A stretch of 64,000 nucleotides of DNA, from contig NC_008044.1 of the NCBI RefSeq assembly GCF_000014065.1, forward strand, positions 2,875,501-2,939,500, read 5' to 3'. Position 1 is the stretch's first letter. Each line of letters starts with the position of its first letter. Under the pieces are notes generated by a model. That model worked only from the letters and a program-made list of their open reading frames with translations, was not told the DNA's origin and searched no databases. Positions 8,272-23,619 of the stretch are shown here, piece by piece. The position numbers and the translations under genes are program-made. This DNA comes from Ruegeria sp. TM1040. Its GTDB lineage: Bacteria; Pseudomonadota; Alphaproteobacteria; Rhodobacterales; Rhodobacteraceae.

Positions 8272-10155
8272 TCAGAGGCGCGGCATCAACTCTGCAAGCG
8301 ACTTGAACCGGTCATAGGCTTTGTTTTCGGCTGCGCTCCACCCGGCCTCTGCAATGGCGCTGAGGCGCGGAAAGATCATGTGATTGCGCCGGGCCATTGT
8401 GGTCAGATGCTCACTCCAGACGCAGGCCTGCACACCTTTGAGCCGCCCCTGAAGCACTGGGTCGCCATTGTCGGCCTCAAACGCATAAGTCTTGTCGAGC
8501 GGGGTGAAACCCGCCCAGCTGGCGCCCGGTGCATACCACGCATCCGACAGCGCCATATCAAGGTAGTAGGCCTGCCCAGGCGTGCTGATGACGTCATAGC
8601 CTTCTTGCGCCAGCTCCGCGGTTTTCTCGATTGTGGTCCAGGCAAACAAAAGGCTGTGCTCGGGATCAAGACCACCGCCATGGGCCACCTCTTCCCAACC
8701 GCCAAGCTTGCGACCAAGCCCCGCCAGATAGGTCTGGATGTGACGCAGGAAATAAGCCTGCAATTGCGGCGTGTCCTTTAGACCCGTTTCGCGCATCATC
8801 GCCTGCGCTTTGGGCGATTGCATCCAAGCGCCCTCGGCCACCTCATCGCCCCCCACATGAACGACCTCAAACGGGAAGATCTCGCAGACCTCGGCCAAAA
8901 CGGTCTCGGCAAAGGTATAAGACTCCTCGATCGCCGGGTTGAGCGCGTTGTTGGCAAACCCCTGCACCGACCAGTAGCTCTCGGGCTCTTCGGGATCGAC
9001 CAGATCAGGCAACGCGCCCAGAACGCAAGCACAGTGACCGGGCACGTCGATCTCCGGCATTACTTCGATGCCGAACTGCGCGGCGTGTTTCACCACCTGA
9101 CGGGCCTCGTCCTGGGTGTAAAAACCGCTCTGCCCGGTCATGTCTGGGCCAAGCTGCGGCAAGACGGGCAGGTCCATGCCGGTATGTGCGGCGGTCTCAG
9201 TGAGCTGCGGATAGGCTTTGATCTCCAGCCGCCAGCCTTCATCGTCAGTCAGGTGCCAATGGAACCGGTTCATCTTGTGCCACGCCATGATGTCCACGTA
9301 GCGCAGAACCTGATCGAGCGGGTAAAACTGGCGCGAGACATCCAGATGCGCACCGCGCCAACCGTGGCGGGGGGCGTCCTCGATCTCTCCGCTGAGCGGC
9401 ACGCCATAGCGCTGAGGCTCAGCGTGGGCATGGGTGAGCATCTGCGCCAGCGACACCAGACCGTAAAACAGCCCCCGCCCGCTGCCGTGATGCAGGGTGG
9501 TTTTCCCTTCGTCCCAAGTGATACGATAGCCATCTGCGGGGAGTGTCTGATCCGGCGTAATGCAGAGCAGTGCCACGTCCTCCTTGGCGGTCAACACAAA
9601 CGGTGTCGGCGCAAGCGGATGCAAACGGCGAGTCAGCTCAGAGACGCGCGATACCAACTGCATCACCGCTGCGTCATCACTCTGAAGCGCGAGATGCACA
9701 GGGGCGGTCTCAGCCCAGTTCGAGATAGCGACACGCTTGGGTTCGGGCAGAATCCCGCATGTTAGAGCCGCATTTTGCACAGCTGTTGCGTGACCTTCCA
9801 CCACAGAGGCCTGCAAGTCCCCGGCAAATGCCAGCACGAGCGTGTCATCCTCCAAGAGGACTCCCGCTGATTTTGGCCCCTCATTGGAATGAAGCGCCGG
9901 ACGGGTGAGGCTATGCTCCGTGAACCGCCAAGTCTCTCCCGGTGCGAGCACGAATCCCTCGTCCGAGGCGTATTCGTGAAAGTTTGCCTGCCGCCGCACA
10001 AGCCGTGCCCCGGTGCAGTTCGAAGGCCGCAAACACCGCGTGAGCGTTGCGTAAACGAGGCGCGGGTTGGTCACGGGGGTTGTGCCACAATTGGTCAGCG
10101 CGAACTCCATCGCGCCTTCTTCGGCATGCCAGAGGCTATCGAGGTGAAAATGCAT
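8272..10155 (-). CDS. Beta-N-acetylhexosaminidase, glycoside hydrolase family 20
   Basis: A 627-residue GH20 enzyme that would release N-acetylglucosamine from imported chitobiose or short chito-oligosaccharides. The catalytic Asp-Glu pair is Asp437-Glu438 in VVHVGGDEV. Other family marks are HLDVSRQFYP, FHWHLTDDEGWRLEI and MPEIDVPGH. The N-terminal ~230 residues correspond to the carbohydrate-binding and GH20b-like regions. There is no signal peptide, so it should act in the cytoplasm after transport, as in the Vibrio chitobiose operon. It is the last gene of the transporter operon, 35 nt after the GNAT gene. Confidence 0.93.
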   Translation of the reverse strand: MHFHLDSLWHAEEGAMEFALTNCGTTPVTNPRLVYATLTRCLRPSNCTGARLVRRQANFHEYASDEGFVLAPGETWRFTEHSLTRPALHSNEGPKSAGVLLEDDTLVLAFAGDLQASVVEGHATAVQNAALTCGILPEPKRVAISNWAETAPVHLALQSDDAAVMQLVSRVSELTRRLHPLAPTPFVLTAKEDVALLCITPDQTLPADGYRITWDEGKTTLHHGSGRGLFYGLVSLAQMLTHAHAEPQRYGVPLSGEIEDAPRHGWRGAHLDVSRQFYPLDQVLRYVDIMAWHKMNRFHWHLTDDEGWRLEIKAYPQLTETAAHTGMDLPVLPQLGPDMTGQSGFYTQDEARQVVKHAAQFGIEVMPEIDVPGHCACVLGALPDLVDPEEPESYWSVQGFANNALNPAIEESYTFAETVLAEVCEIFPFEVVHVGGDEVAEGAWMQSPKAQAMMRETGLKDTPQLQAYFLRHIQTYLAGLGRKLGGWEEVAHGGGLDPEHSLLFAWTTIEKTAELAQEGYDVISTPGQAYYLDMALSDAWYAPGASWAGFTPLDKTYAFEADNGDPVLQGRLKGVQACVWSEHLTTMARRNHMIFPRLSAIAEAGWSAAENKAYDRFKSLAELMPRL

Positions 10156-10190: not shown

Positions 10191-10646
10191 TCAGACGAGG
10201 GCATTGTCAAAGACACCGTCGTCTGAGTTCGGGATGACCACCGCGCCGCAGGCCTGTTCGTAAAAGGCCACCGGGCCTGCCTGACCGATGATGCCATAGG
10301 CAAACCCTTCGTCCCGAAGACGATGCAGCGCGGCCAGCAAGAGCGCCTTGCCGAGCCCCTTGCCACGGGCCTCCGGGTCGACGCCGGTCGGGCCAAAAAA
10401 GCCCCGGCAGGTGACGTCGAAACAGGCAAAGCCCAAAAGGCGTGATCCTTCGGTGGCAATCAGCACCCGCGAGGGCCGTGCAGCCAGTGCTACGGTACAT
10501 TCATCGACCCATTTAGAGCTGAAGTGCTGACCCACGAAGGCAAGGAGCACATGCGATTCAAACGGCAGCGCAGGGCGGATTTTGATGTCGGGTGCAAGAT
10601 CCGGCATCCGCGGAAGGCGATAGAGCGGCACCAACATGTCAGGCAT
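10191..10646 (-). CDS. GNAT-family N-acetyltransferase in the chitobiose operon
   Basis: A 151-residue acetyltransferase. The ATG at 10646 has a GGAGG site 6 nt upstream, and the coding region overlaps the end of the upstream ATPase gene by 8 nt. The acetyl-CoA pyrophosphate loop reads ARGKGLGKAL, followed by the C-terminal FYEQACG. The substrate is unknown. Its position between the transporter and the hexosaminidase makes an amino sugar or an oligosaccharide breakdown product a plausible acceptor, but that rests on context only. Confidence 0.8.
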   Translation of the reverse strand: MPDMLVPLYRLPRMPDLAPDIKIRPALPFESHVLLAFVGQHFSSKWVDECTVALAARPSRVLIATEGSRLLGFACFDVTCRGFFGPTGVDPEARGKGLGKALLLAALHRLRDEGFAYGIIGQAGPVAFYEQACGAVVIPNSDDGVFDNALV

Positions 10647-11568
10647 GGGCAACCTCCGCGTGTTCCGCGATCACATGACCGGGAGAGACCTCGCGAAAGG
10701 CCTGCACATCATGGGCGCTCTGTCCGCGGACCCGCCGCGCCTCGGCGGCAAAGCCCGCATCGCTGCCGGTAAGACGCAATTCCGGGTCGGGAACGGCAGC
10801 GCGCAGAAGTTTCGTATAGCCATGTTGCGGCGCACCGACGACCCGTGCTGTGGGGCCGCGCTCGACCACCTGGCCGCGAAACATCACCGCCGTGTCTTCG
10901 GCGAGATACTCGGCGGTGGCAATATCATGGGTGATATAGAGGAGCGACAGCCCGTGTTCGTCCTTCAGGCGCTGCATCAGACCAAGGATGGATTTTCGGA
11001 TCGACACATCGAGCATCGAGGTCGGCTCATCCGCCACGATCAGACGCGCCTTGACCGCCAGTGCGCGTGCGAAATTCACCCGCTGACGCTGCCCGCCGGA
11101 CAGTTCATGCGGGAACTTTGCGGGCGTCGAGACGGGATCCAGTTCCACATCCTCAAGGATCATGCGCAGGGCCGTTTCGGGGTCTGCGTCGGGCTGGTGC
11201 AGCGAGAGCGCGCGCAACAGGTGGTGACGGATCGTATGCGCGGGGTTAAGCGCCGAAAACGGATCCTGAAACACCATCTGAACCGCTTGCCGGTAGCGCA
11301 TCTGATCCGCGCGTGTGGTCAGCTCGGCGATATCTTGGCCCTCAAAGAGGATCCGCCCTGAGGTTGGCGTGTGATGCCCCACGATCATCCGACCCACGGT
11401 GCTTTTGCCCGAACCGCTCTCCCCGACCAGCGCCAGCGCACGGCCCGGCATCAGATCAAGCGAGACATTGCGCAGGGCATTCACTTGGGTTGCGCGGCCA
11501 AAGGCGGGGCGCAGGGTAAAGGTCTTGCTGAGGTTCTCGAGGCTCAGAATAGGCGTCTCAGACAGCAT
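10639..11568 (-). CDS. ABC transporter ATPase, OppF/DppF type (chitobiose importer)
   Basis: A 309-residue ATPase of an oligopeptide-type importer. It has Walker A (GESGSGKST), the signature LSGGQRQR and Walker B (LIVADEPTS). The ATG at 11568 has an AAGGAG site and overlaps the upstream ATPase by 11 nt. Oligopeptide-type ABC systems also carry sugars, and the linked CBP-like binding protein and GH20 enzyme indicate (GlcNAc)n. The C-terminal ~50 residues past the usual oligopeptide/dipeptide domain look poorly conserved. Confidence 0.9.
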   Translation of the reverse strand: MLSETPILSLENLSKTFTLRPAFGRATQVNALRNVSLDLMPGRALALVGESGSGKSTVGRMIVGHHTPTSGRILFEGQDIAELTTRADQMRYRQAVQMVFQDPFSALNPAHTIRHHLLRALSLHQPDADPETALRMILEDVELDPVSTPAKFPHELSGGQRQRVNFARALAVKARLIVADEPTSMLDVSIRKSILGLMQRLKDEHGLSLLYITHDIATAEYLAEDTAVMFRGQVVERGPTARVVGAPQHGYTKLLRAAVPDPELRLTGSDAGFAAEARRVRGQSAHDVQAFREVSPGHVIAEHAEVAHA

Positions 11569-12370
11569 GGCGCGCTCCTTCCGGGCGTTTGGCGAGGATC
11601 GGCATCGCCTCCCACAGGCTGCGGGTGTAGTCGTGGCTTGGGTTGGTCACGATCTGCGCGGCGGTGCCGATCTCGACGATCTCGCCCGCGCGCATGATGC
11701 CGATGCGATCCGAGATCTGCGCCATCAGGGCGATGTCGTGGGTGATGAACAGAACCGAGAACCCAAGCTTGTCCTTGAGGCGCAGCACCTCTTGCAGGAT
11801 CTCCCGCTGCACCACCACGTCAAGCGCCGTCGTTGGCTCATCCATGATAATAAGCTTGGGCTGCAAGGTGAGCGCCAGCGCAAGCGCCACCCGCTGCCGC
11901 ATCCCGCCCGACAGCTGATGCGGGTGGGCGTGCATGCGGTCTGCGGGGATACCGACCATTTCCAGCATGTCGGCGGTACGCGCCATGGCGTCTGCCTTGG
12001 TGATCGTCCCATGCGCGCGCAGCATGTCGTAGAACTGACGAAAGATCGTCATCACCGGGCTCAGAGAGTTCATCGCGCTCTGGAACACCATGGAGACCTC
12101 CGACCAGCGCCAGGCACGCAAATCCTTGTCAGAGAAAGACAGGACATCGCGCCCCTCAAAGAGGATGCGCCCCCGGCGCACCAAAGCCGGCGGTTTGTGC
12201 AAACGCATCAGCGCATAGGCCACCGTGCTCTTGCCACAGCCGGACTCGCCCGCAAGACCAAGGATCTCATTGGGCTGGATCTCAAAAGAGATGTCCCGAA
12301 CGGCGGTAAAAGGCGCGCCTGCAGTCAGATAATCGACCCGCAGGCCCTCGACGGAAAGAAGGGCGCTCAT
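11558..12370 (-). CDS. ABC transporter ATPase, OppD/DppD type (chitobiose importer)
   Basis: A 270-residue ATPase. The start is the ATG at 12370 (MSALLSVEGLRVDY), which overlaps the stop of the upstream permease as ATGA; the open frame extends further upstream but only inside the permease gene. Walker A is GESGCGKST, the signature LSGGMRQRVALA and Walker B LIIMDEPTT. It would pair with the downstream OppF-type ATPase as the heterodimeric motor of the importer. Confidence 0.9.
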   Translation of the reverse strand: MSALLSVEGLRVDYLTAGAPFTAVRDISFEIQPNEILGLAGESGCGKSTVAYALMRLHKPPALVRRGRILFEGRDVLSFSDKDLRAWRWSEVSMVFQSAMNSLSPVMTIFRQFYDMLRAHGTITKADAMARTADMLEMVGIPADRMHAHPHQLSGGMRQRVALALALTLQPKLIIMDEPTTALDVVVQREILQEVLRLKDKLGFSVLFITHDIALMAQISDRIGIMRAGEIVEIGTAAQIVTNPSHDYTRSLWEAMPILAKRPEGARHAV

Positions 12371-13275
12371 TGCTCGGCCTCCTGCATGCGTTGGCGCAGC
12401 AAGCGCTTTTCGATCCGCAGCGCCTTGGCGACATTGCCAAGGGTGCGCATCCGGGGGTTTGCGATCTCGTCCACGCCGAAGTTCATCAGCGACAGGCCGA
12501 CACCGATCAGCACGATCGCCGCACAAGGGGCCAGAACCTCCCACCATGCGCCAACCATGATCGCCGAAGCGGTCTGCGCATTATAAAGCATGGTGCCCCA
12601 CGACAGGGCCAAGGGGCTGCCAAGGCCGAGGAATTCAAGCGTGGCCTCGGTGATGATGGTGAAAATGACGGAGCCGATAAAGTTGAACCCTATGATCGAC
12701 AGCAGGTTCGGCAGCATCTCGACAAGGATCATCCGCCACGTAGGCTCTCCGATCATCGCGGAGGCCTGAATAAAGTCGCGGGTCTTGAGCGACATCGCCT
12801 GTGCACGGGTGACGCGTGCGCCCCAGGCCCAGGAGGTCAGACCGATAATAAGCGCGATCGCCCAGGGTCCGACCTGACCGAGGAAAGCGGCCAGAACCAG
12901 CAGGAGCGGCAGTTGTGGCAGCACCAGAACCACATTGGTAAAGAAGTTGAGGATATCATCCACAAGGCCGCCAAAATAGGCAGCGGTGATGCCGATGAAG
13001 GTGCCAATCGCGGTCACGATCAGGCCGGCAACAATCCCCACCATCAGCGAGGTACGCGTGCCCCAGACCAACTGGCTGAACACGTCGCGCCCCATGCGGG
13101 TGGTCCCGAGCCAGTGTTCGACCGAGGGCGGCTGATGCGGACGGCCCACGCGGGCAATGGGATCAAACGGTGCGATCAGGGGCGCGGCAATCGCAATCGC
13201 CACATAGATCAGCACGATGGTGAGCCCGATAGCGGCCTTGCGATTGCGCAGAAAGGTACGAAGGAGATCTGACAT
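12367..13275 (-). CDS. ABC transporter permease, DppC type (chitobiose importer)
   Basis: An inner-membrane permease of 302 residues. A first membrane helix (about 13-35) is followed by a short periplasmic region with the DppC hallmark HWLGTTRMGRDVFSQLVWG. Five further hydrophobic segments follow. The cytoplasmic coupling loop reads RAQAMSLKTRDFIQASAMIG. Its start overlaps the DppB-type stop by one base (TGATG), consistent with tight coupling of the two permease subunits. Confidence 0.9.
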   Translation of the reverse strand: MSDLLRTFLRNRKAAIGLTIVLIYVAIAIAAPLIAPFDPIARVGRPHQPPSVEHWLGTTRMGRDVFSQLVWGTRTSLMVGIVAGLIVTAIGTFIGITAAYFGGLVDDILNFFTNVVLVLPQLPLLLVLAAFLGQVGPWAIALIIGLTSWAWGARVTRAQAMSLKTRDFIQASAMIGEPTWRMILVEMLPNLLSIIGFNFIGSVIFTIITEATLEFLGLGSPLALSWGTMLYNAQTASAIMVGAWWEVLAPCAAIVLIGVGLSLMNFGVDEIANPRMRTLGNVAKALRIEKRLLRQRMQEAEQ

Positions 13276-14252
13276 CAGGCCCTCTTCAGTCGGGGGTCAA
13301 GGAAGACGTAGGCCAGGTCCACCGCGAGGTTCGCGAGCAGCATGGCAAGTGTCATGATGAGAAGCTGGCCCTGGATCAGCGGGAAATCCCGCCCCACGAT
13401 GCCGAGGTACAAAAGGTTGCCGACACCCGGATAGTTGAACACCACCTCGGTAATGAGCGAGCCACCAAAGAGTGCCCCGAAACTAAGCGCCAGCGCGGTG
13501 ACGGATGGCAGCAGTGCGTTGCGAGCGGCATAGGCATAGCGCACGCGCGCATCGCTCAGCCCCTTGGCTTCGGCCATGGCGAGGTAGTCCTCGCCCAGTT
13601 GCCCGATCATGTTGTTGCGCATGGTGATGAGGTAGCCGCCGATCAGCACCACGCTCAGCGTCACCACCGGCAAAAAACCGTGATATGCCACGGATGAGAT
13701 GAACTCCCAGCTCCAACTTGGGTCGAGCTTGGGATCAAAGGCGTAGGAGGTCGGGAAGAAGCGGTTGCGCACCGCAAGGAAATAAAGCCCGCAGAGCGCG
13801 ACGACCACGGCCGGAACCGACTGCAGCGCAAGCGCGGTGGGTGAGGCGATCACATCCGTAAGCTGCCCGCGCCGCCAGGCTGCCAGCACGCCCAGAAGGG
13901 TGCCTACGGAAAAGGAAATCAACAACGCCGCCCCCGTCAGGAACAGGGTCCACGGCAACGCCTGCGTCAGCACATCGGCAACCGGCATCGGGTAGAACTT
14001 GATCGACAACCCAAAGTCCCAGGTGAAGATCGAGCCAAGATAGGCAAAATACTGTTCGTGCAACGGTGCATCGATGAACCCGAAGGTGGCCATCAGCGCC
14101 TCGCGCGCTTCGGGTGCGATCATGCCACCGGAGTTCGCCAGCATGATATCCGCCGGGTTGCCGGGCAACAGGCGCGGGATCATGAAGTTGAAGGTCGCGG
14201 CCACCAGAAAGGCAACGGCATAAAAGCCGAGCCGCTTCAAAAGAAAACGCAT
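13275..14252 (-). CDS. ABC transporter permease, DppB type (chitobiose importer)
   Basis: An inner-membrane permease of 325 residues. The start chosen is the ATG at 14252 (MRFLLKRLGF), the usual N-terminus for DppB-type proteins; the frame extends 19 codons further up without family-like sequence. Six membrane segments are visible, and the coupling loop reads EDYLAMAEAKGLSD. It lies 88 nt after the binding-protein gene with a strong hairpin between, the usual way such operons produce more receptor than permease. Confidence 0.9.
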   Translation of the reverse strand: MRFLLKRLGFYAVAFLVAATFNFMIPRLLPGNPADIMLANSGGMIAPEAREALMATFGFIDAPLHEQYFAYLGSIFTWDFGLSIKFYPMPVADVLTQALPWTLFLTGAALLISFSVGTLLGVLAAWRRGQLTDVIASPTALALQSVPAVVVALCGLYFLAVRNRFFPTSYAFDPKLDPSWSWEFISSVAYHGFLPVVTLSVVLIGGYLITMRNNMIGQLGEDYLAMAEAKGLSDARVRYAYAARNALLPSVTALALSFGALFGGSLITEVVFNYPGVGNLLYLGIVGRDFPLIQGQLLIMTLAMLLANLAVDLAYVFLDPRLKRA

Positions 14253-14296
14253 CAGGTCAAACCATCTGTCGGGAGGGGAGTGTGGGGCGCCAAAAG

Positions 14297-14325
14297 CGGG
14301 ACCACTCATCAGATGAGCGGTCCCG
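14297..14325 (-). repeat. Intercistronic hairpin after the chitobiose-binding-protein gene
   Basis: CGGGACC-A-CTCAT pairs with ATGAG-C-GGTCCCG, 12 base pairs with one internal mismatch and a 3-nt loop. It lies 16 nt after the binding-protein stop and before the permease genes. Such hairpins usually stabilise the 5' segment and reduce read-through, giving excess binding protein. Confidence 0.6.
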
Positions 14326-14340: not shown

Positions 14341-15996
14341 TTACTCGACCGGGCGCAGGTTCAGGAGGTGGATCAGACGGGCCGGGTTGGTTTTGTGAAC
14401 CACCGGGTTGGCCACCGGGTTGTCAGCGTTGAAGAAGCCTTCGAAACGCTTGGTGTTGTACTGATACCAGCGCGGGTTGTTGAACACATAGGCCAGCGGC
14501 ATGTCTTCACCGACGATCTCTTGTACATCGGACATGATCGCCATCTGCTTGTCGGTGTCGCTGGTCTGGGTGAAGGCATCCAGAAGGTCGCTCAGCTCTT
14601 CGTTGTAGTACCGCGACGCGGCAAAACGCGACTTGGCCTGATTAATCTCGTGGAGCGAGTCCAGATACTGGTTGAAGGGGGTCGCACCAACACGAACCGA
14701 GTTGATCGCCATGTCATAGTCGCCCTTGATCAGCTTTTCGGTCCAGATCGCGGATTCAGGTGTTGAGACATTGGCCTTGATCCCGGCTGCATTCAGGCCC
14801 TCGACCGCGATCTGGCTGCTGTTGACCCAGTCGGTCCAGCCGTTGGGCACGATGACTTCAATGTCGATCTGCTCACCGCTTGGGGTTTCCACAAAGCCGT
14901 CACCGTCAATGTCCTTGAACCCGGCCTCGGCCAGCTGTGCCTTGGCGCCCTCGATGTCATATTGGGTAAACGCGCCAAATTTGTCCTCGACTTCGGGGTT
15001 GTTCCACGCGTGATAAGCGCGGCCCAGACCAGAGGGATACTGGTTGATCGTCGGATAGCCATAGCCTGCAATTTCCACCATCGCTTCGCGGTCGAAGGCC
15101 ATCGACACCGCGCGGCGGAAGGCGACGTTGTTCACGGCTTCTTTGTCGCCGGCTTCTTTGGCCTCGAAGTTCATGTAGAACGCCACGAGAGAGCCTGCGG
15201 GCAGCCAATAGCTGTGATGCTCGGGGTCCTTGGCGACAAAGGTGTTGTCGATGTCGGGCAGGAAGGACCCCATCCAGTCCAGTTCGCCATTCGCGGCCGC
15301 TGCCAGCGCCTGATCGTTGTTGGCGATCTGCGGGAAACGCATGCAGTCGACCTTGAGGCTCTCAGCGTCCCAGTAATTGTTGTTGCGGCACTGGATGTAT
15401 TCCTGCGGCGTGAAACGGCGGATCTCTGTCAGCGGACCGGACCCCACGGGATCAGGGTTGGTAAAGGTCACGGGATCGGAGACGTTGCTCCAGACGTGTT
15501 CGGGGACGATTGGCACACGCACGATCTGGTACATGGCCTGGCTTGAAGGGGTGGAGAGGTTGAACTTCACCGTCATCTCGTCGAGTTTCTCGACACCAGA
15601 GAGCATCTGCGCCATGCCGACGCTGTCGAGGGCCGGATCGCTCAGCGCCAGATCAAAGGATTTGACCACATCATCGGCGGTGAATGCTTCGCCATCGGAC
15701 CACTGAACGCCATCGCGCAGGGTCACGGTGATGGAACTCAGATCATCGGAATACTCAAATGCGGTCGCCAGACGGTAGATCGGCTTGCCGCCGTCGAGCG
15801 CGTTGAAAATGATCAGCGGCTCGTACATGAAATGCATGACGGACGGCGCCGCGGTGGTCTGGTTGAACGGGTTGAAGTTCTCCACCCAAGCGGTGACCTG
15901 TTCCGGCAACGCGCTCAGCACGGTTTCCTCTGCCTGTGCGGCAGTGGTCCAGAGCGCAACCGAGGCCAAGAGCCCGGCGGTAGCAGTGAATTTCAT
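14341..15996 (-). CDS. Chitin-oligosaccharide binding protein (CBP-like, SBP family 5)
   Basis: A periplasmic receptor of 551 residues with a signal peptide cleaved near TTAAQA (about residue 22). It belongs to the oligopeptide-type binding proteins, but its motifs match the Vibrio chitin oligosaccharide binding protein closely from memory: ENFNPF, YEPLIIFN, the stretch beginning YIQCRNNNYW, and RFPQIANNDQ. PNGWTDW contains Trp387 and Asp389, in the place of the Trp/Asp pair that contacts the sugar in Vibrio CBP. It is the first gene of the transporter operon and is divergent from the ChiS-like kinase. In Vibrio the unliganded CBP holds ChiS in check; the same partnership is inferred here. 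Confidence 0.88.
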   Translation of the reverse strand: MKFTATAGLLASVALWTTAAQAEETVLSALPEQVTAWVENFNPFNQTTAAPSVMHFMYEPLIIFNALDGGKPIYRLATAFEYSDDLSSITVTLRDGVQWSDGEAFTADDVVKSFDLALSDPALDSVGMAQMLSGVEKLDEMTVKFNLSTPSSQAMYQIVRVPIVPEHVWSNVSDPVTFTNPDPVGSGPLTEIRRFTPQEYIQCRNNNYWDAESLKVDCMRFPQIANNDQALAAAANGELDWMGSFLPDIDNTFVAKDPEHHSYWLPAGSLVAFYMNFEAKEAGDKEAVNNVAFRRAVSMAFDREAMVEIAGYGYPTINQYPSGLGRAYHAWNNPEVEDKFGAFTQYDIEGAKAQLAEAGFKDIDGDGFVETPSGEQIDIEVIVPNGWTDWVNSSQIAVEGLNAAGIKANVSTPESAIWTEKLIKGDYDMAINSVRVGATPFNQYLDSLHEINQAKSRFAASRYYNEELSDLLDAFTQTSDTDKQMAIMSDVQEIVGEDMPLAYVFNNPRWYQYNTKRFEGFFNADNPVANPVVHKTNPARLIHLLNLRPVE

Positions 15997-16347
15997 GTTG
16001 TGTCTCCCTGTGATGACGGGTTTTCCCGCCTCGTGTCATTCCCCGTTCCCGCCCGGTGAAGGGCGCCCACGGAGCAAACCATGGGGGGCATTTGATCTCC
16101 TCACCAAACGCCGGGGATGTTCCACAATGAAGTCCGCGCTGCCCTCACAATGGTACCCGAAAAATCGGAAATATCGTCAAAACGCTGCGCACGCCGTTTT
16201 GACGTATCGCAATAGACAAGTCATTCCAAACTGTTAGAGACCCTTCTAGAGATTTATGCCTGCGCCGGGTTCTGTCCTCTCCCCTTGCCTCAGGTGAGGC
16301 TAGACCGCAGGATCGCGCAGATTGCTACCAAAAGAACCGGAGCCACC
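15997..16347. promoter_or_regulatory. Divergent promoter region of the CBP operon and chiS-like gene
   Basis: About 350 bp without a supported gene. The part from about 16120 to 16260 is clearly richer in A+T than its surroundings and holds the long palindrome at 16175-16204. The CBP ribosome binding site (AGGGAGA) is just upstream of 15996. I see no other coding potential; the in-frame TTG at 16285 is not needed as a start for the kinase. Confidence 0.6.
16175..16204. promoter_or_regulatory. Perfect 10-bp palindrome, candidate operator for the ChiS-like regulator
   Basis: CGTCAAAACG (16175-16184) and CGTTTTGACG (16195-16204) are exact inverted copies separated by 10 bp, so the half-site centres are 20 bp (two helical turns) apart. 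It lies 179 bp upstream of the CBP start and 144 bp upstream of the kinase start. The symmetry is seen directly; assignment to the ChiS-like protein is inferred from position. Confidence 0.6.
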
Positions 16348-19300
16348 GTGCCGCTACAGGGAATTCGCGCTCGCCTTTTGTTCACCTTCCTCCTCGCGTC
16401 CGTTTTGCCGCTGACGCTGGGCGGGATGGTGTTTTATCGGCTGGTCAATCAGACCATCGCCACCGAGACCTTTCAGAAGGTAGCCTTTGTGCGCGATGCC
16501 AAGGCCAGCGAGATCATGCAGTATATGACCTACGCGCGCAGGCAGGCGGAAAACCTCGCCCAATCGGCCAATGTGCGCTACTCGGTCGGAGAGTTTTACG
16601 GCTTCAGCCATGCGCTTCGGCAGATGCAGGGCACGCCCGAGGAAGCCGGTGCCAAGCTGCGCAATATCTTTGATATTGATGGCCCTGCAGCGCCGCCTTC
16701 GGGGATTGGCAGCGAAGACCGGCTGCTGCGCGAAGCTTTGGAGTATTCCAACACTCACCGCCGGTTTCATGCGGGATTCCTCGACTTTCTGAATGAGGCC
16801 GAGTTCGACAATCTCTATCTCGCCGATCGCCACGGGCAGGTGGTCTACTCGGTTCACAAGGATCGCTACCTCGGGCGCGTGCTGCAGCCGCAGACGCCGG
16901 GACTGGGACAGGCCTATACACGCGCGGTAAACCAGCCTGGGTTTGATCCGGTGTTTCAGGATTATGCGCGGGACGCGGTGACCGGTCAGCTTGTGGCTTA
17001 CCTCGCGGTGCCCGTGCGGCTCCATGGTAGTAATAAGGGCGCGATGATCCTACGGATGCCTCCGAACAGCCTGCACCGTCTGATGATCGAAAGCGAAACC
17101 GCCCTCACCGTGCTGTCGTCGCAGGGCACTATCATCGCCACCAGTGCGCCACCTCCAGACAATGCCACCGAAAGCCTTCCTGAAGCGATGCGTGCTAGCG
17201 AGGGTGTCGCACTGCTTGAGGCTGGCCTCTCCGGTGATCCGTCGCTTTCGGCCTGGCGTGTGTTGGAGCCCCCCTTCCCTGCATGGACCGTCGTCGCCGA
17301 GGCGGATCGGGATGCGGCATTCGCCAACAGCAGCCAGCTGCGAAACGCATTGTTCCTGATCGGCGCGGTTGCCGTCACGGGGCTTGGGCTTTTGTCATTT
17401 GTCTTTGCGAATGCGCTCACCCGCCCGGTTCGGCGTCTCTCGGAGGCGGCCAGCGCGGTTGCCACCGGCAGTCTGAATGAGGCCCTGCCAGAATACGAGC
17501 GCCCAGTCGAATACGCGCGCCTTTCACGCGCAGTGAACCAGATGCGGCGCGCTCTGCGTGACCAACTGGATATGATCCGGGACAAGAACGCGGAGCTGCA
17601 GGAAAACCTGCGCCAGATAGGTGAAAAGAACGCCAAACTCGAGGAGGCGGACCGGATGAAGGATCGCTTCCTCGCCAATACCTCGCACGAGTTGCGCACG
17701 CCGCTAAACGGCATCATCGGCATCCTCGAGACGCTCGAAGGCGGGGCCATGGGCGATATGCTGCCCGCGCAAGCCAGCCAGTTACGCCTGATCACCTTCA
17801 GCGCGCGCCGCCTGTCGCGGCTTGTGGACGATCTTCTGGACATCTACCGCATCCGCGAGGGTCGGATGCGGCTTGATCTGCAACCGGTGGATGCCTCGCA
17901 CGCGTTGCGCAATGTGCTGCAACTCCTGCAACCGACCTTTCAGGTGGATCCCGCCAAATTCCACGTCGATCTCCCCGGGGACTTGCCTGCCCTAACCGCG
18001 GACCCGGTGCGCTTTGAACAGATCCTGTTCAACCTGCTGTCAAATGCGGTGAAATACGGTGGTGGCAGCGAAGTCTACATCACCGCCGAAGAGCGCCCAT
18101 CTGGTCATGTGGCGCTGGCGATCCGCGATCACGGTCCCGGCATTGCCGCCGACAGCATGGAACGCATCTTTCACCCGTTGGAACAGCTGATGCCGGATGG
18201 ATCCGGGCAGGCCACAGGCACCGGACTGGGCCTGACGATCGCGCGCCACCTGGCCGATCTGATGGCGGGTAGCATCGAGGTCTCGAGCACCCCCGGCGAA
18301 GGATCGGAATTCCGGGTGGTGCTGCCGCTGTCTGACCTGCCCGCCGTGGCACCGCTTGAGGAGTGGCTGCCAAACCCGCCCGCCCCGGTGCCGATGATGC
18401 ACACCAAACCGGGCGAACCCAGCCCGATTGCGCCGGATGGTTCGCCCCTGATCCTTGCCGTGGATGACGAGCCGATCAATTTGCAGGTCCTGCAGAATGT
18501 CCTTCTACCGCAGGGATACCGCATCACCACCGCCCGCAACGGCTCCGAAGCGCTGCGCAGCGTGGCACAGGAGCGGCCAGACCTTATTGTGCTCGATGTC
18601 ATGATGGCGGGATTGAGCGGCCTCGACGTCGCCCGCGATTTGCGCCGTCGTCATGGGCTGCATGAGTTACCGATCATCTTGCTGACCGCACGCGGCCGCA
18701 CCAGCGATATGCTGGCGGGGTTTGAGGCGGGGGCAAACGACTATGTGGTGAAGCCCTTTGTCAAAGACGAACTACTGAGCCGTATCCGCACCCTTCTCGA
18801 AGCCAGCCGGGCGCGCAGCCGCGCCGAAGAGAACCGAGAACTGAAAGAAGAGATCGAGCGCCGGATCCAGATCGAGGACGCCCTGCGTCTGTCGCAACGG
18901 CGGATGACGCAGCTGCTCGATGTTTTGGAGGATGGGCTGATCTGCATCAACGCCCGCGGGGTCGTCACCTATGTCAACGAAGCCGCTCAACAGGTGCTGA
19001 AGCAGCGTGTGACTGTGAATCGTAGCCGGCTCAGCGATGTCCTGCCTCAGGACGTGCTGGCGCCGCTCGAACAAACGGAGGTCGAGGACGAGCCGATCCA
19101 TATGGAGATCACCCTGCGCGGCACCTCCCATCAGGTCAGCCTCTTTGCCATGCTGCCCGAAGCGGGTGGCGGGCGGGCGGTGCTCTTTACGCAGGCGCAG
19201 TCCTCGCGGGATCAGTTCGTCCACTCCCTGCGCGATGTGGTCGACACGTCGCTGCCCTCGCTGATCCCCGGCGACGTAACCGAAGACGCCAGCACCACCC

Positions 19301-19638
19301 CAGGCGACACCTATCGCGACACCATCGTCACGCTGATGTCGGACTCGCTGGACATCTGGAGTGCGGCCACGGGAAAGGGCAAGATTGACTTTGCCGAGAC
19401 CAGCGGCATCTGGCGGGTGAATCTCGACAAGACATCTTTGCAGACGCGCACACTCGACAAATATCTGCTGATCGAAACCCTGCCCGACAATCCGCGCTGG
19501 CGAGATGTTCTAAAAACCGTGAGCTTTGTGCTCTCTCTCAAGGAACGCGAGACCGCAGACCCGGCGCTCGCGCAGCGGTTCGAGGCACTGGAAACCCAGC
19601 TTGAAGCATTTCGTACTCTGATCGCCCAACGCGGGTGA
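16348..19638 (+). CDS. chiS: ChiS-like hybrid sensor kinase with C-terminal DNA-binding domain
   Basis: A 1096-residue one-protein regulator. The GTG at 16348 is chosen because GGAG lies 5 nt upstream; a TTG start at 16285 lacks a site. In order: membrane segment (about 8-28), periplasmic sensor domain (about 30-330), second membrane segment (about 332-352), HAMP, coiled coil, HisKA with His447 (SHELRTPLNG), ATPase domain (N-box near 560), receiver with Asp750 (LIVLDVMM) and a PAS-like region. The C-terminal segment (about 985-1060: LMSDSLDIW, SGIWRVNLDK, RTLDKYL, NPRWRDVLKT) resembles the DNA-binding domain of Vibrio cholerae ChiS as I remember it. Vibrio ChiS is about 1129 residues with this architecture and is governed by CBP. 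The gene is divergent from the CBP operon. Confidence 0.85.
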   Translation: MPLQGIRARLLFTFLLASVLPLTLGGMVFYRLVNQTIATETFQKVAFVRDAKASEIMQYMTYARRQAENLAQSANVRYSVGEFYGFSHALRQMQGTPEEAGAKLRNIFDIDGPAAPPSGIGSEDRLLREALEYSNTHRRFHAGFLDFLNEAEFDNLYLADRHGQVVYSVHKDRYLGRVLQPQTPGLGQAYTRAVNQPGFDPVFQDYARDAVTGQLVAYLAVPVRLHGSNKGAMILRMPPNSLHRLMIESETALTVLSSQGTIIATSAPPPDNATESLPEAMRASEGVALLEAGLSGDPSLSAWRVLEPPFPAWTVVAEADRDAAFANSSQLRNALFLIGAVAVTGLGLLSFVFANALTRPVRRLSEAASAVATGSLNEALPEYERPVEYARLSRAVNQMRRALRDQLDMIRDKNAELQENLRQIGEKNAKLEEADRMKDRFLANTSHELRTPLNGIIGILETLEGGAMGDMLPAQASQLRLITFSARRLSRLVDDLLDIYRIREGRMRLDLQPVDASHALRNVLQLLQPTFQVDPAKFHVDLPGDLPALTADPVRFEQILFNLLSNAVKYGGGSEVYITAEERPSGHVALAIRDHGPGIAADSMERIFHPLEQLMPDGSGQATGTGLGLTIARHLADLMAGSIEVSSTPGEGSEFRVVLPLSDLPAVAPLEEWLPNPPAPVPMMHTKPGEPSPIAPDGSPLILAVDDEPINLQVLQNVLLPQGYRITTARNGSEALRSVAQERPDLIVLDVMMAGLSGLDVARDLRRRHGLHELPIILLTARGRTSDMLAGFEAGANDYVVKPFVKDELLSRIRTLLEASRARSRAEENRELKEEIERRIQIEDALRLSQRRMTQLLDVLEDGLICINARGVVTYVNEAAQQVLKQRVTVNRSRLSDVLPQDVLAPLEQTEVEDEPIHMEITLRGTSHQVSLFAMLPEAGGGRAVLFTQAQSSRDQFVHSLRDVVDTSLPSLIPGDVTEDASTTPGDTYRDTIVTLMSDSLDIWSAATGKGKIDFAETSGIWRVNLDKTSLQTRTLDKYLLIETLPDNPRWRDVLKTVSFVLSLKERETADPALAQRFEALETQLEAFRTLIAQRG

Positions 19639-19643
19639 CCGTT

Positions 19644-20546
19644 TCAATCCCCGAGCGGCTGAGGTCCAGTGCGACCGTGATAAGCGGTGAGCGAGGCCCG
19701 GATGCGGCGCAGGTTCTCTGTCGTGGCCGCTGTCCGCGCCTGCGCCACGGACATCGCAAGCGCGTCGACGATCACCAGATGCGCATAGCGCGACGCGGTG
19801 GGCTTCAGAATGTCGGGATCTTCGGGCAGATCGGCTTCGATCGCGACTGTCGCTTCTTGCGCCAATCGGCTGCCTGGTCGGGCGATCGCCACTACGGTCG
19901 CACCATAGCCGCCGGCAATCGCTGCAGCGCTGACGATCTCATCCGCCGCGCCACTAGCAGAGACCAGCAGCAGGACGTCCCCCTTGACCAGGGTTGCGGC
20001 GCGCATTTGCAGCAAATAGCTGTCAGAGATCGAAACGGCTGGAATACCAAGCCGGAACATACGGTTGGCCGCCTCCTGTGCAACCATGGTCGAGCCCCCG
20101 CCAACCCCGGCCACAACAATCTGCCCCGCCGCGGCCAGGGCCGCCGCCGCCGCATCCAGCCGTTCTGGCACCAGCTGCTGACGCATCACATTGACGGTTG
20201 CATAGAGCGCGCCGAGCACCTGATCGACAGCGCCTGCACCACCTTCGGGAACCTCGCGCTGACTGGGCGCGAGGTATTGCAGGCTCACGGCGAGATTCTG
20301 CGCCAGCCGCAGCTTGAACTCGCGAAAGCCATCACAGCCCATGCTCCGACAGAAACGCACAACCGTCGGCGTGCTGACCCCCACTGCGCCCGCCAGCTCG
20401 GCAATCGTCATGTTGGAGATCTCTTCAAGGTGCGCCGAAACGAAGTCCGCGACCTTTTGCTCGCGCGCGGCAAAACTGCCGTTCAACTCCCGCAGGTTGG
20501 AGATCAGATCGACTGCTCCCTGCGTGGGACTGTTCTCAGGTGCCAT
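19644..20546 (-). CDS. MurR/RpiR-family transcriptional regulator
   Basis: A 300-residue regulator. The ATG at 20546 is preferred (GGGAG 6-7 nt upstream) over an in-frame ATG at 20567. The N-terminal RpiR helix-turn-helix (about 12-85) contains MTIAELAGAVGVSTPTVVRF, and the C-terminal SIS domain (about 125-260) contains VGGGSTMVAQEAANRM and LLVSASGAADE, which bind phosphosugars in this family. It is divergent from the TRAP-led catabolic operon, with three matching operator-like sites between. An effector such as KDG or KDPG is plausible. It ends 5 bp from the convergent chiS-like stop. Confidence 0.9.
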   Translation of the reverse strand: MAPENSPTQGAVDLISNLRELNGSFAAREQKVADFVSAHLEEISNMTIAELAGAVGVSTPTVVRFCRSMGCDGFREFKLRLAQNLAVSLQYLAPSQREVPEGGAGAVDQVLGALYATVNVMRQQLVPERLDAAAAALAAAGQIVVAGVGGGSTMVAQEAANRMFRLGIPAVSISDSYLLQMRAATLVKGDVLLLVSASGAADEIVSAAAIAGGYGATVVAIARPGSRLAQEATVAIEADLPEDPDILKPTASRYAHLVIVDALAMSVAQARTAATTENLRRIRASLTAYHGRTGPQPLGD

Positions 20547-20577
20547 CTGGCTCTCCCGTAATTTCATCCCGTGATTC

Positions 20578-20592
20578 TGTACCTAAGATACA
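20578..20592. promoter_or_regulatory. RpiR-type operator copy 1 (TGTACCTAAGATACA)
   Basis: A 15-bp element of the form TGTA-N7-ACA. It lies 31 bp upstream of the regulator's own start, so it could mediate autoregulation. The pattern resembles the TGTA(AT-rich)TACA sites of HexR, another RpiR-family protein. Confidence 0.6.
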
Positions 20593-20639
20593 TTTTCAGG
20601 TCAATTCGAGCCCGATTTCTTCGTTTCAGCGTCGATATT

Positions 20640-20654
20640 TGTAGCTTAGTAACA
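20640..20654. promoter_or_regulatory. RpiR-type operator copy 2 (TGTAGCTTAGTAACA)
   Basis: Second copy of the TGTA-N7-ACA element, in the middle of the divergent region and just upstream of a candidate -35 box for the TRAP operon (20663). It is more degenerate in the centre than copies 1 and 3. Confidence 0.55.
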
Positions 20655-20662
20655 AATAATGC

Positions 20663-20692
20663 TTGACTGAACGCCTACCTGCTCCTGAATAT
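20663..20692 (+). promoter_or_regulatory. Candidate sigma-70 promoter of the TRAP operon
   Basis: TTGACT (20663-20668) is followed after 18 bp by GAATAT (20687-20692) as a possible -10. Operator copy 3 begins at 20692, so a bound repressor would cover the -10/start region. Prediction by eye only. Confidence 0.4.
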
Positions 20693-20706
20693 GTACCTAA
20701 ATTACA
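20692..20706. promoter_or_regulatory. RpiR-type operator copy 3 (TGTACCTAAATTACA)
   Basis: Third copy, sharing TGTACCTAA with copy 1 and lying directly upstream of the ribosome binding site of the TRAP small-subunit gene. Its position is typical of a repressor site. Confidence 0.6.
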
Positions 20707-20721
20707 AATCAGGGAGTCATC

Positions 20722-21243
20722 ATGATCGGGGATTTTGCAGGGCGGCTCAGCCACCAGATCAATCGCGGCACGGAAGTGATCCTCGCCGCGTTGATGGTGG
20801 CGCTGGTGCTCGACGTCTGGATTGGCGTTGTGGATCGCTACTTCTTTCACTGGCAACTGCCCTGGCCCGAAGTCCTCGCGCGATACCTGATGATCTGGGC
20901 TGCGATGCTCGCTGTGTCATCGGGGATCGCGCGGCGCGAACATATCGGACTGACGGCTGTGCTAATGATCCTGCCTGCCCCTTTGCGTCGTGGCATGCTG
21001 ATCCTCATCGACCTGATGACCTTTGCCCTGTTTTTCTACGTCCTGTGGTTCGGGATCGGCTTTGCAGAGAGTGGCGCCAAACGGCAGGCGATGATCCTGG
21101 GCGCGACTTTGCAGCCCTTTTACATGGCGATCCCGGCCGCCGCGGCGTTGGCCTGCGTGCAAGTCGTCCTGGTGATGATCCGCGATGCAGGCGGCCAGCT
21201 CGACCTCAATGACACCGATTCCAAGGAAGGAGCAGGCGCATGA
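20722..21243 (+). CDS. TRAP transporter small membrane subunit (DctQ family)
   Basis: A 173-residue inner-membrane protein with four hydrophobic segments (about 18-38, 52-72, 88-112, 130-155), as usual for DctQ. The start ATG at 20722 follows GGGAG by 5 nt. It overlaps the large-subunit gene by 4 nt (ATGA). It bridges the periplasmic receptor and the large transport subunit; transport is driven by an ion gradient, not ATP. Confidence 0.92.
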   Translation: MIGDFAGRLSHQINRGTEVILAALMVALVLDVWIGVVDRYFFHWQLPWPEVLARYLMIWAAMLAVSSGIARREHIGLTAVLMILPAPLRRGMLILIDLMTFALFFYVLWFGIGFAESGAKRQAMILGATLQPFYMAIPAAAALACVQVVLVMIRDAGGQLDLNDTDSKEGAGA

Positions 21244-22526
21244 TCGTCGGCATCTGTTTTGTCGTGCTTCTCGCAGTTGGCATGCCCATCGGCTTTGCCA
21301 TTGGTCTTGCGGGTGTCATCGGGATTTTCACCATGGGGGGCGGCAGCACGTTCCTTGCAATTGGACCAAGCAAGATCTTCAACGGGCTCAATATTTTCCC
21401 GTTCCTTGCGATGCCGTTCTTTATCCTGGCGGGCGAGATCATGAACAGCACCGGGATCACCGGACGATTGGTGAAGCTGGCCGAGGTGCTTGTGGGCCGC
21501 TTTCGCGGTGGCCTTGCGCATACCAACATGCTGGCGTCGGTCTTTTTTGCGGGTCTTACCGGGTCTGCGACTGCGGATGCGGCCGCCTTTGGCCGTACGT
21601 TGGTGCCCGCGATGGTGAAACAGGGCTACAAACGCGATTACGCCTGCGCGGTCACGGCTGCCGGGTCAATCATCGGGCCGACCATTCCTCCCTCCGGGCT
21701 GATGGTGGTCTATGGCTCCTTGATGGGGGTCTCGATTGGCGGGTTGTTCGCAGCGGGATTGCTGCCGGGCCTGGTGATCTGTGCGGTCTGCATGGGCGTT
21801 ATTGCCATTGGCGGCAAACGCGAAAACCTGCCCAAAGCAGCGCGTGGCGCAAGCTTGGGTGAAGTATGGCGCACCTTCCTGTCGTCGATCACCGCGCTTT
21901 TGATGCCGATCATTATTCTCGGCGGTATTCTGGGCGGGATCGTCACCCCTACCGAAGCAGCCTCCATCGCCGTGGCCTACGCCCTCTTTATCGGCTTTTT
22001 CGTCTATCGCACGCTGACCTTCCCGGATCTCTACGGGATGCTGATCCGCACCGCGCGCATTACCGGGGTGATCTTCGTGATCATCGCCTTTGCGAGCATC
22101 CTCGGCTGGTGGATGAGTTTTGAGCGCATCCCGCAGGCCATCGCGGGCAGCGTGCTGGGCCTGTCGGAAAACCCCTATGCGGTGATCGCGATCATCATCT
22201 GCATCCTCCTGGTGATCGGCATGGTGATGGACATCACCGCGATCCTGATCATCCTCGGCCCGGTGCTTGTGCCGCTCACAGAGCAAATCGGACTGGAGCC
22301 AATCCACGCCGGGATCATCTTTGTGCTAGCGCTCAACATCTCCTTGATGACGCCCCCCGTTGGGGCCTGCCTCTTCGTATTGTCGTCGGTGACAGGCGAA
22401 AAGCTCGAGCGGATTTCGGTGAAGCTTGCCCCCTTCTTAATCGCGGAAGTGATCATTCTCTTCCTCTTCGCATTCTGGGAGGACGCGGCTCTGTTGCTGC
22501 CGCGTGCGCTCGGATTTGCCCCCTAA
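21240..22526 (+). CDS. TRAP transporter large membrane subunit (DctM family)
   Basis: A 428-residue transport subunit with about twelve hydrophobic segments. It shows the DctM patterns FLAMPFFILAGEIMNSTGIT, GSATADAAA, IIGPTIPPS and MTPPVGACLFV. It is the membrane carrier proper, working with the DctQ and DctP partners of the same operon. Its substrate is set by the binding protein downstream, probably a small organic or sugar acid. Confidence 0.93.
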   Translation: MIVGICFVVLLAVGMPIGFAIGLAGVIGIFTMGGGSTFLAIGPSKIFNGLNIFPFLAMPFFILAGEIMNSTGITGRLVKLAEVLVGRFRGGLAHTNMLASVFFAGLTGSATADAAAFGRTLVPAMVKQGYKRDYACAVTAAGSIIGPTIPPSGLMVVYGSLMGVSIGGLFAAGLLPGLVICAVCMGVIAIGGKRENLPKAARGASLGEVWRTFLSSITALLMPIIILGGILGGIVTPTEAASIAVAYALFIGFFVYRTLTFPDLYGMLIRTARITGVIFVIIAFASILGWWMSFERIPQAIAGSVLGLSENPYAVIAIIICILLVIGMVMDITAILIILGPVLVPLTEQIGLEPIHAGIIFVLALNISLMTPPVGACLFVLSSVTGEKLERISVKLAPFLIAEVIILFLFAFWEDAALLLPRALGFAP

Positions 22527-22575
22527 CCGGGGCCAAACAACCCCACCTTCAAAAACCAACAGTGAGGAAAAACAA

Positions 22576-23619
22576 ATGAAATCAGTCCTGAAGACAGCTG
22601 CCGTTGGCGCGATCGCCGCCCTGACCGCAAGCTCCGCCATGGCCGGTGGCACCATCCGCTTCGGCCACGACAACAAGACCGATCCGTTTGAAAACCCGGC
22701 TCACGCCTGTACCGCCGTGTTCCAGAACATCGTCACCGCAGACACCAACGGCAGCGTCACGGTCGAAGTCTTCGGTTCCAACCAGCTTGGCACTGCAGCA
22801 GAGCACGTCCAGCAGGTGCGCGATGGCGTCATTCAGGCAACACTCACCTCCACCGGTGCGCTTGCGTCTTATTATCCTCGCATCGACGTGCTGAACCTGC
22901 CGTTTGCATTTGCCAACAACGCCTCGACCTATTCCGTGTTCGACGGTGAATTCGGCGAGGCCCTGGCCGCGGACATCGAAGCCGAGCTCGGCGATGTCGT
23001 TGTGCTTGGTTTCCCGGACACCGGCGGCTTTTTTGCGGTGACCAACTCTCAGCGCCAGATCGCGAATCTTGAGGATTTCGACGGCATCCGCATCCGCACC
23101 ATGACCCTGCCGAGCCACCAGAAGATCGTGCAGGCGCTTGGGGCCGAGGCCTATCCGCTCAGCTGGGGTGAGGTCTATTCTGGCCTGCAAACCGGCGTAA
23201 TTGACGGTCAGATGAACCCGGTGCCGATCATCTCCTTTGCGAACTTCGCAGAGGTGCAAAAGCACATGACGCTCACCAACCACCTGTTCTCGCCCTACAC
23301 CTTCATGGTCAACAAGGCGTTCTATGACGGTCTGACCGAAGCGGAGCAGAACACCCTGCACACCGCCGCCGAAAGCTGCGTCACCGCGAGCCGCGGCCTG
23401 TCGCGCATCATCGAGGCATCCGATCGTGGTCTGGCGGGTCTGATGGACAAGATCGAAGTGACCGCCCTCTCCAGCGAGCAGCGTGCCGCGATGGCCGGTG
23501 CCACACAGCCCGCGTTTGAGACCCATGTGGCGGAGAACCTCGACGCCAAGGCTGGTGAACTCCTGGCGCTCTTCAAATCCGAAGTCGGGAAGGCAAACGA
23601 CGCCTCTTATCTCGACTAA
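22576..23619 (+). CDS. TRAP transporter periplasmic substrate-binding protein (DctP family)
   Basis: A 347-residue receptor starting at the ATG at 22576 (GAGGAAA site), with a signal peptide ending SSAMA (about residue 23). The DctP fold is shown by GFPDTGGFFAVTNSQRQI, the stretch RIRTMTLPSHQKIVQALGAEAYPLSWGEVYSGLQTGVIDGQ, and HLFSPYTFMVNK. The arginine in the GIRIRT segment is the usual carboxylate-binding residue, so the ligand should be an acid. A GC-rich hairpin follows the stop and separates it from the enzyme genes. Confidence 0.92.
   Translation: MKSVLKTAAVGAIAALTASSAMAGGTIRFGHDNKTDPFENPAHACTAVFQNIVTADTNGSVTVEVFGSNQLGTAAEHVQQVRDGVIQATLTSTGALASYYPRIDVLNLPFAFANNASTYSVFDGEFGEALAADIEAELGDVVVLGFPDTGGFFAVTNSQRQIANLEDFDGIRIRTMTLPSHQKIVQALGAEAYPLSWGEVYSGLQTGVIDGQMNPVPIISFANFAEVQKHMTLTNHLFSPYTFMVNKAFYDGLTEAEQNTLHTAAESCVTASRGLSRIIEASDRGLAGLMDKIEVTALSSEQRAAMAGATQPAFETHVAENLDAKAGELLALFKSEVGKANDASYLD

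Follow-up and report, generated by a model that had tools for sequence, protein, structure and literature searches.

A roseobacter ChiS orthologue with a C-terminal DNA-binding domain and a predicted operator in the cbp/chiS intergenic region

We analysed a 64-kb stretch of the Ruegeria sp. TM1040 genome (contig NC_008044.1, positions 2,875,501 to 2,939,500), referred to below as the window, in which an open reading frame (ORF) of 1096 residues, chiS, is divergent from a run of genes encoding the chito-oligosaccharide-binding protein CBP, two importer permeases, two importer ATPases, a GNAT acetyltransferase and a GH20 enzyme. The chiS frame starts at GTG 16348, preceded by GGAG a few bases upstream, and its stop codon ends at 19638; the nearest ChiS relatives align from the first residue of this start, and an in-frame TTG upstream, at 16285, is a possible alternative. 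A preliminary description of this DNA, made from the letters alone, had read a membrane sensor, a HisKA domain, an ATPase and a receiver in this ORF, and all of them were borne out by Pfam together with two hydrophobic stretches. The order of transmembrane stretch, sensor, transmembrane stretch, HAMP, kinase, receiver, PAS and DNA-binding domain is that of ChiS, with the dCache match of the sensor (residues 123-272) and the PAS match lying below the Pfam cut-off.

The C-terminal segment, which the same description had marked at about residues 985-1060 as a candidate ChiS domain, is the ChiS DNA-binding domain. In a phmmer search against the PDB sequences, residues 986-1064 match PDB 7KPO, in which the DNA-binding domain of V. 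cholerae ChiS was solved by crystallography, with an E-value of 1.4e-21 for the whole protein and 4.1e-23 for the C terminus alone; this is the only significant match, the sole other one up to E 10 having an E-value of 0.8. An AlphaFold2 model of residues 951-1096, built from an alignment of 30 sequences of the window and its relatives, has a mean predicted local distance difference test score (pLDDT) of 79, with model residues 1-34 disordered and blocks from 41 on at 83-97, and presents two short strands between helices. In a Foldseek search of this model against the PDB, 7KPO was again the sole match at E ≤ 0.001 (E 1.4e-8), and the superposition gave a TM score of 0.88 by target and 0.65 by query with a root-mean-square deviation of 2.4. 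The Pfam search showed no match across residues 986-1064, and no Hpt or dimerisation domain, the case that would have spoken for another function, was found there by Pfam, sequence or fold.

Five residues of V. cholerae ChiS are essential for DNA binding, R1068, R1074, K1078, R1090 and R1092, of which R1068 has been termed poorly conserved (PMC8092284). The equivalent positions in the window protein are K, R, K, R and R, i.e. four identical residues and an Arg to Lys change at the R1068 position. R1034, K1038, R1050 and R1052 are kept in all 60 aligned full-length ChiS sequences (window included), and at the fifth position 37 of them have R and 23 have K. In the same alignment the phospho-acceptors H447 and D750, which the preliminary description had rightly called intact, and the four other catalytic residues tested are kept in 60/60 sequences, which argues that phosphorylation is under selection where the kinase/receiver module exists. 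The source genome carries a single ChiS-type DNA-binding domain. By hhalign, the sensor and its counterpart in Vibrionaceae ChiS are homologous (probability 99.9%, E 3.3e-36). The absence of a response-regulator gene nearby also held among the 20 window ORFs given to Pfam, a subset of those present; a separate histidine kinase gene lies at 1648-3033, 13 kb from chiS.

The gene order points in the same direction. We scanned the GTDB species genomes for the ChiS DNA-binding domain and read the best 80 of 279 relatives (the named loci, L numbers). The chiS homologues sit by cbp and importer genes. The two genes are divergent in all 46 grouped alphaproteobacterial loci (15/15 of Rhodobacteraceae/Stappiaceae, 18/18 of other Hyphomicrobiales and 13/13 of Rhodospirillales type), whereas in 27 of the 28 gammaproteobacterial loci chiS is upstream of and colinear with cbp, the exception being the divergent locus of an Osedax symbiont (L111). 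The order was repeated in 12/12 loci of a second set; 11 of them lie on contigs that also gave named loci. Because the DNA-binding domain, the essential residues, the gene order and the homologous sensor all agree with Vibrio ChiS, the ORF is the ChiS orthologue of a roseobacter.

Table 1. Features of the chiS locus, with positions in the window
Feature	Position	Strand	Basis
chiS, membrane hybrid kinase with C-terminal ChiS-family DNA-binding domain, 1096 aa	16348..19638	+	ORF, Pfam, phmmer
Transmembrane stretch 1, hydrophobic, residues 10-30	16375..16437	+	letter run, not a transmembrane predictor
Periplasmic sensor (weak dCache), residues 30-345, homologous to Vibrionaceae ChiS sensor	16435..17382	+	Pfam, hhalign
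Transmembrane stretch 2, hydrophobic, residues 334-354	17347..17409	+	letter run, not a transmembrane predictor
HAMP, residues 353-405	17404..17562	+	Pfam above cut-off
HisKA, residues 437-505, phospho-acceptor H447	17656..17862	+	Pfam above cut-off, alignment
HATPase_c, residues 552-662	18001..18333	+	Pfam above cut-off
Receiver, residues 702-814, phospho-acceptor D750	18451..18789	+	Pfam above cut-off, alignment
PAS-like, residues 852-925	18901..19122	+	Pfam below cut-off
ChiS-family DNA-binding domain (helix-sheet-helix), residues 986-1064	19303..19539	+	phmmer, AlphaFold2, Foldseek
Predicted ChiS operator, three units at a 9-bp step, CGAAAAAT CGGAAATAT CGTCAAAACG	16158..16184	+	motif discovery, conservation
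Perfect inverted repeat CGTCAAAACG-N10-CGTTTTGACG	16175..16204	.	right arm conserved in few relatives
cbp, chito-oligosaccharide-binding protein, SBP_bac_5	14341..15996	-	Pfam, sequence match, residue alignment
Importer permease 1	13275..14309	-	Pfam
Importer permease 2	12367..13275	-	Pfam
Importer ATPase 1	11558..12547	-	Pfam
Importer ATPase 2	10639..11568	-	Pfam
GNAT acetyltransferase	10191..10652	-	match search
GH20, beta-N-acetylhexosaminidase family	8272..10155	-	Pfam
RpiR/HexR-like regulator, TRAP transporter (DctQ, DctM, DctP), M81/MlrC-like, D-serine dehydratase-like, PfkB kinase; beside chiS	19644-27127		

In the intergenic region between cbp and chiS, conservation among 16 Rhodobacteraceae/Stappiaceae promoters peaks at about 16147-16186 (best 20-column windows 0.91, median 0.56). 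Motif discovery was run on each clade separately. It returned AAaATCGgAAaTTTCGTCAA in 16/16 promoters of this group, CGAAttTGACGAttTTTaCG (in reverse CGtAAAaaTCGTCAaatTCG) in 17 of 18 promoters of Devosia, Nitratireductor, Maritalea and kin, CAAacTCGTcanTTTCGTCA in 13/13 Rhodospirillales-type promoters and gCcCGTTAAAAaCGTnAAAA, with a good site in 24 of 28, in the gammaproteobacterial promoters. The likelihood scores were 182-326 compared to 57-83 for shuffled sets; kinship within a clade inflates these scores, and the argument rests on the agreement between clades. Common to the four motifs are CGT-like units repeated every 9 bp. In the four groups, 7/16, 9/18, 7/13 and 24/28 promoters contain the simple form CGTnA-N4-CGTnA, compared to at most 1, 1, 1 and 5 promoters for any other gap from 0 to 11 between the units, and its density is 0.97-3.41 per kb in the cbp promoters against 0.02-0.07 per kb elsewhere in the same loci. 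The looser CGnnA-N4-CGTCA occurs in all 16 promoters of the window's group. The four groups leave out six of the 80 named loci, of which L039 carries the element and L051, L070, L073, L074 and L100 are cut short or lack cbp; four gammaproteobacterial loci in the promoter set have broken or cut chiS frames. The gammaproteobacterial run was repeated without the last 60 bp, since the first run had locked onto the cbp start region. No good site was found for L103 or, in the 20-base run, for L111, L097, L102 and L107, and the three Motilimonas promoters among these get a weak site in a 26-base run.

The perfect inverted repeat CGTCAAAACG-N10-CGTTTTGACG was also considered as the operator and was rejected, its right arm being conserved in few relatives; what is conserved there is the left arm together with the 9-bp units that precede it. 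The stretch between cbp and chiS showed no sigma-70-like promoter. Allowing one mismatch at most, TCGNNAANTTCGTCAAA has six hits in the whole genome, compared to one for the reversed pattern: in the cbp/chiS region, inside long frames (three hits), at one unclear place (L134) and at L135.

The tfoR small RNA promoter is a published ChIP-seq peak for ChiS (PMC11856585). We found tfoR (RF02100) in 19 of the 25 gammaproteobacterial genomes searched, and CGTnA-N4-CGTnA lies within 350 bp upstream of it in 17/19 loci, where 0.23 would be expected. The spacing preference is strong, not clean, as other gaps are seen in 8/19 loci for gap 7, 4 for gap 6 and 3 for gap 8. Additionally, two copies of the element lie exactly 30 bp apart in 16 of the 28 gammaproteobacterial cbp promoters, which fits the two helically phased ChiS sites that Pchb needs (PMC13316777). 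Taken from the sequence comparisons, the 9-bp-step element is probably the ChiS operator.

Some further sites were noted. At L135, a frame that by eye resembles a thiamine-pyrophosphate enzyme is preceded at about 94 bp by the one-mismatch element, which makes it a possible second ChiS target. In Grimontia hollisae (L121, 1501-1516), such an element about 140 bp upstream of the chiS frame raises the possibility of autoregulation. Six Devosia cbp promoters (L049, L054, L056, L059, L060 and L066) present two matches to the gammaproteobacterial matrix 21 bp apart, compared to 30 bp in Vibrionaceae. An exact motif in V. mytili (L116) was rejected as a tfoR promoter, because it lies inside an AraC-type gene (HTH_18) and not upstream of tfoR, which has its own sites upstream. 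This AraC-type gene is presumably TfoS-like, judging by its position.

A part of the family lacks the kinase. In 13 Rhodospirillales-type loci (L068, L069, L071, L074, L075, L076, L080, L082, L083, L085, L087, L088 and L096), and in a single metagenome-assembled genome (MAG) contig of Devosia (L049), where HAMP is kept, the frames have about 500-690 codons, and their matches to ChiS cover the sensor and the DNA-binding domain but neither the kinase core nor the receiver. None of the six proteins searched with Pfam (L076, L068, L075, L080, L049 and L010, the last of a further family) has a HisKA, HATPase or receiver match. Between the kinase-less and the full-length sensors hhalign detects homology (E 7e-51, a value helped by the Devosia row in the kinase-less alignment), and single tblastn matches of the Rhodospirillales-type proteins have E-values of about 1e-16 to 1e-21. 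In genomes drawn from the class, seven of the eight hits beyond the source genome have frames of 498-632 codons; two of them (L162, L163) combine sensor and DNA-binding matches with a cbp at a distance of about 1.7 kb, and the ChiS-type protein of L161 follows importer genes on the same strand. We rejected the idea that the short frames are response regulators of a split two-component ChiS, as their translations show a sensor and a DNA-binding domain without a receiver. The promoters of the kinase-less loci keep the 9-bp-step element. On quick trees the kinase state changes twice for CBP (58 full and 12 kinase-less of 74 rows; the other four, L053, L077, L105 and L112, were dropped as doubtful, L053 being full length) and twice for ChiS.

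We propose that ChiS is an inner-membrane sensor that would itself be the transcription factor. Its periplasmic domain would read the state of the CBP encoded next door and, on the model of V. cholerae, whose ChiS is repressed by CBP and released by chitin (PMC10208484), sugar-loaded CBP would relieve the inhibition. The change would pass through HAMP and the kinase/receiver module, and the C-terminal helix-sheet-helix domain would then bind, from the membrane, the 9-bp-step element at 16158-16184, activating the divergent cbp-importer-GNAT-GH20 genes and perhaps chiS too. We hold this mechanism to be highly likely. The domain identity, the essential residues, the gene order and the presence of one element in two classes and at a published target are computational observations; DNA binding, CBP gating, the role of phosphorylation and activation by the window protein are what we infer. 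With less assurance, we lean towards a core of ChiS that is a CBP-gated membrane transcription factor, made of sensor, DNA-binding domain and 9-bp-step operator, with an optional kinase/receiver/PAS module that has changed state at least twice, so that the kinase would tune the signal rather than carry it.

The input of the system is probably scavenged oligosaccharide released by other organisms, since no GH18 chitinase was found in the genome: a search with PF00704 gave 0 matches in the source genome and matches in 6 of 14 control genomes. A GH19 search (PF00182) gave 0 matches in the source genome and also 0 in all 14 controls. The preliminary description had called the protein a one-protein membrane transcription factor for chitin use; a ChiS orthologue beside CBP, importer and GH20 genes, neighbours that support a ChiS function, sustains its first part, and for lack of a GH18 match "chitin use" reads better as uptake and use of chito-oligosaccharides. 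Such scavenging fits Tritonibacter mobilis, with ChiS, no chitinase and no chitin degradation (PMC4359443).

The window CBP matches Vibrio-type chito-oligosaccharide-binding proteins over its full length with E-values of about 1e-168 to 1e-165 (1ZTY, 5YQW), the next kind following at 7e-57. Numbered against VhCBP (PMC8449061) with an offset of two, which we fixed from residue matches in the alignment, six of the ten sugar-contact positions are kept (those of N204, S221, W363, D365, R436 and F437), and the four differences from the Vibrio protein are E10 to Gln, N409 to Ser, F411 to Arg and W513 to His. The structure 5YQW is that of the V. harveyi CBP.

Several observations weigh against the proposal. 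The window sensor is only about 20% identical to the Vibrio sensor, and with the four changes in the CBP pocket the ligand may differ. SlmA is a co-activator at V. cholerae Pchb (PMC5519180) and EIIA-Glc a ChiS repressor (PMC10208484); the source genome gave three weak hits below the cut-off and none over it with the SlmA profile (NF007015), and no EIIA-Glc match (PF00358), which 5 of 14 controls gave. Concerning the operator, the simple form is missing from the window promoter, where the second unit reads CGG; 8 more copies of the loose pattern and two of the simple form stand elsewhere in the window; and the genome has five further hits of TCGNNAANTTCGTCAAA. A matrix trained on the gammaproteobacterial sites reaches p<0.05 in 14/16, 14/18 and 5/13 alphaproteobacterial promoters, several times at another site than the clade motif, and kinship partly accounts for the conservation of the element within one clade.

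Other explanations were weighed against the proposed mechanism. An ordinary hybrid kinase, with an Hpt or dimerisation domain at its C terminus and an output by phosphotransfer to an unlinked response regulator, would suit the intact kinase and receiver residues of the full-length sequences; we regard it as extremely improbable, because the C terminus matches 7KPO alone by sequence and by fold, gives no Pfam Hpt or dimerisation match and conserves the DNA-contact residues, and because the kinase-less relatives retain this domain. ChiS could also bind DNA elsewhere, the 9-bp-step element belonging to another regulator of cbp, given that the RpiR-like gene beside chiS is present in the same 6 of 18 genomes of the genus. 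This appears quite improbable in view of the element upstream of tfoR, the ChiS ChIP-seq target, in 17/19 loci (PMC11856585), of its presence in clades with no RpiR match in the locus, and of the recognition stretch QTRT, which is kept while the sites share one core.

It is rather unlikely that the kinase-less relatives have a separate kinase or receiver as partner, or are fragments of genes: receiver-like or kinase-like matches do lie several kb away in L076 and L161, and the Devosia case is a single MAG contig, whereas the 13 Rhodospirillales-type loci share one layout, a sensor with two hydrophobic stretches and an intact domain, and Pfam shows neither kinase nor receiver in the six proteins. 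Similarly doubtful is a system that senses another N-acetylated or modified oligosaccharide instead of chitobiose. The missing GH18 chitinase and the CBP pocket speak for it, W513 being His in 16/16 Rhodobacteraceae/Stappiaceae rows and E10, N409 and F411 differing in the window; against it, W363 and D365 are kept, as are R436 and F437, said to contact the N-acetyl group (PMC8449061), and a GH20 gene stands in the same run as cbp.

Compared with V. cholerae ChiS (7KPO; PMC8092284), the window protein shares the domain order, the DNA-binding fold, the essential residues, a homologous sensor, neighbouring cbp and importer genes and a similar predicted operator. It differs in the divergent orientation of chiS and cbp, which are colinear in Vibrionaceae, in the low sensor identity, in a single conserved element of three units in place of two sites spaced by 30 bp, in a genome where no SlmA over the cut-off, EIIA-Glc or GH18 was found, and in the CBP pocket. 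The preliminary description had stressed an occurrence outside Vibrio. Its presence in an alphaproteobacterium holds, and its novelty does not, as the domain has been reported in diverse proteobacteria, with 3,242 of 3,829 hits called direct ChiS homologues (PMC8092284), where the kinase-less forms may already figure in Data Set S1 or Fig. 5A. A 2015 genome survey lists ChiS in two strains of Ruegeria mobilis, now Tritonibacter mobilis, i.e. of the window's genus, without chitinase genes or chitin degradation (PMC4359443). There ChiS is a table entry, with CBP listed as 0, and the available text discusses no DNA-binding domain, operon or operator. A literature search covering titles, abstract openings and few subscription papers returned no study of the mechanism, operator or kinase-less forms of an alphaproteobacterial ChiS. 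The window ChiS is therefore of a published kind; what merits following up is the operator common to both classes and the variants without a kinase.

Histidine kinases that bind DNA directly are rare, and ChiS is one of them; the mechanistic work on it that we found concerns V. cholerae. A predicted operator common to two bacterial classes makes its DNA recognition testable, and the kinase-less relatives are a natural experiment on the role of kinase and receiver in a membrane-bound transcription factor. Regulators of the ToxR/TcpP/CadC type are transmembrane transcription regulators. Like the members of this group, surveyed in PMC10269533, ChiS is a membrane-anchored DNA-binding protein, in its kinase-less form with the same plain layout; it differs by the ChiS-family domain at the C terminus, and that census does not mention ChiS. 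As this domain has no Pfam match, a Pfam-based census of membrane DNA-binding regulators would miss the family.

Among the best 80 of 279 relatives, the nearest to the window domain are from an Epibacterium sp. (89%) and from species of Tritonibacter, which suggests a Tritonibacter-like host. Draws of whole genomes show the domain to be rare, the source genome counted: 9/385 in the class, 8/390 in the order and 7/101 among relatives. In the window's genus it is found in 6/18 genomes. The RpiR-like gene adjoining chiS occurs in exactly the same six, so that chiS and the adjoining RpiR/TRAP module may travel together. The GNAT gene of the cbp run has a match in 20 of the 80 named loci, one partial and one elsewhere in its locus.

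In Niveispirillum lacus (L076), the kinase-less ChiS is flanked by a GH3 enzyme and a TonB-dependent receptor (7548-8678, 10520-13240), which suggest outer-membrane oligosaccharide uptake. Four gammaproteobacterial loci (L077, L091, L105 and L112) have short chiS frames of 274-820 codons, either assembly errors or broken genes. The loci L111 and L103 stand out: in the gammaproteobacterial Osedax symbiont (L111), cbp and chiS are divergent as in the alphaproteobacteria, and the cluster groups with that of a Hyphomicrobiales MAG. In the CBP tree the alphaproteobacterial rows fall on one side of a branch with full SH-aLRT support, and L111 lies inside, beside that MAG, which suggests a transfer between classes or a misplaced bin.

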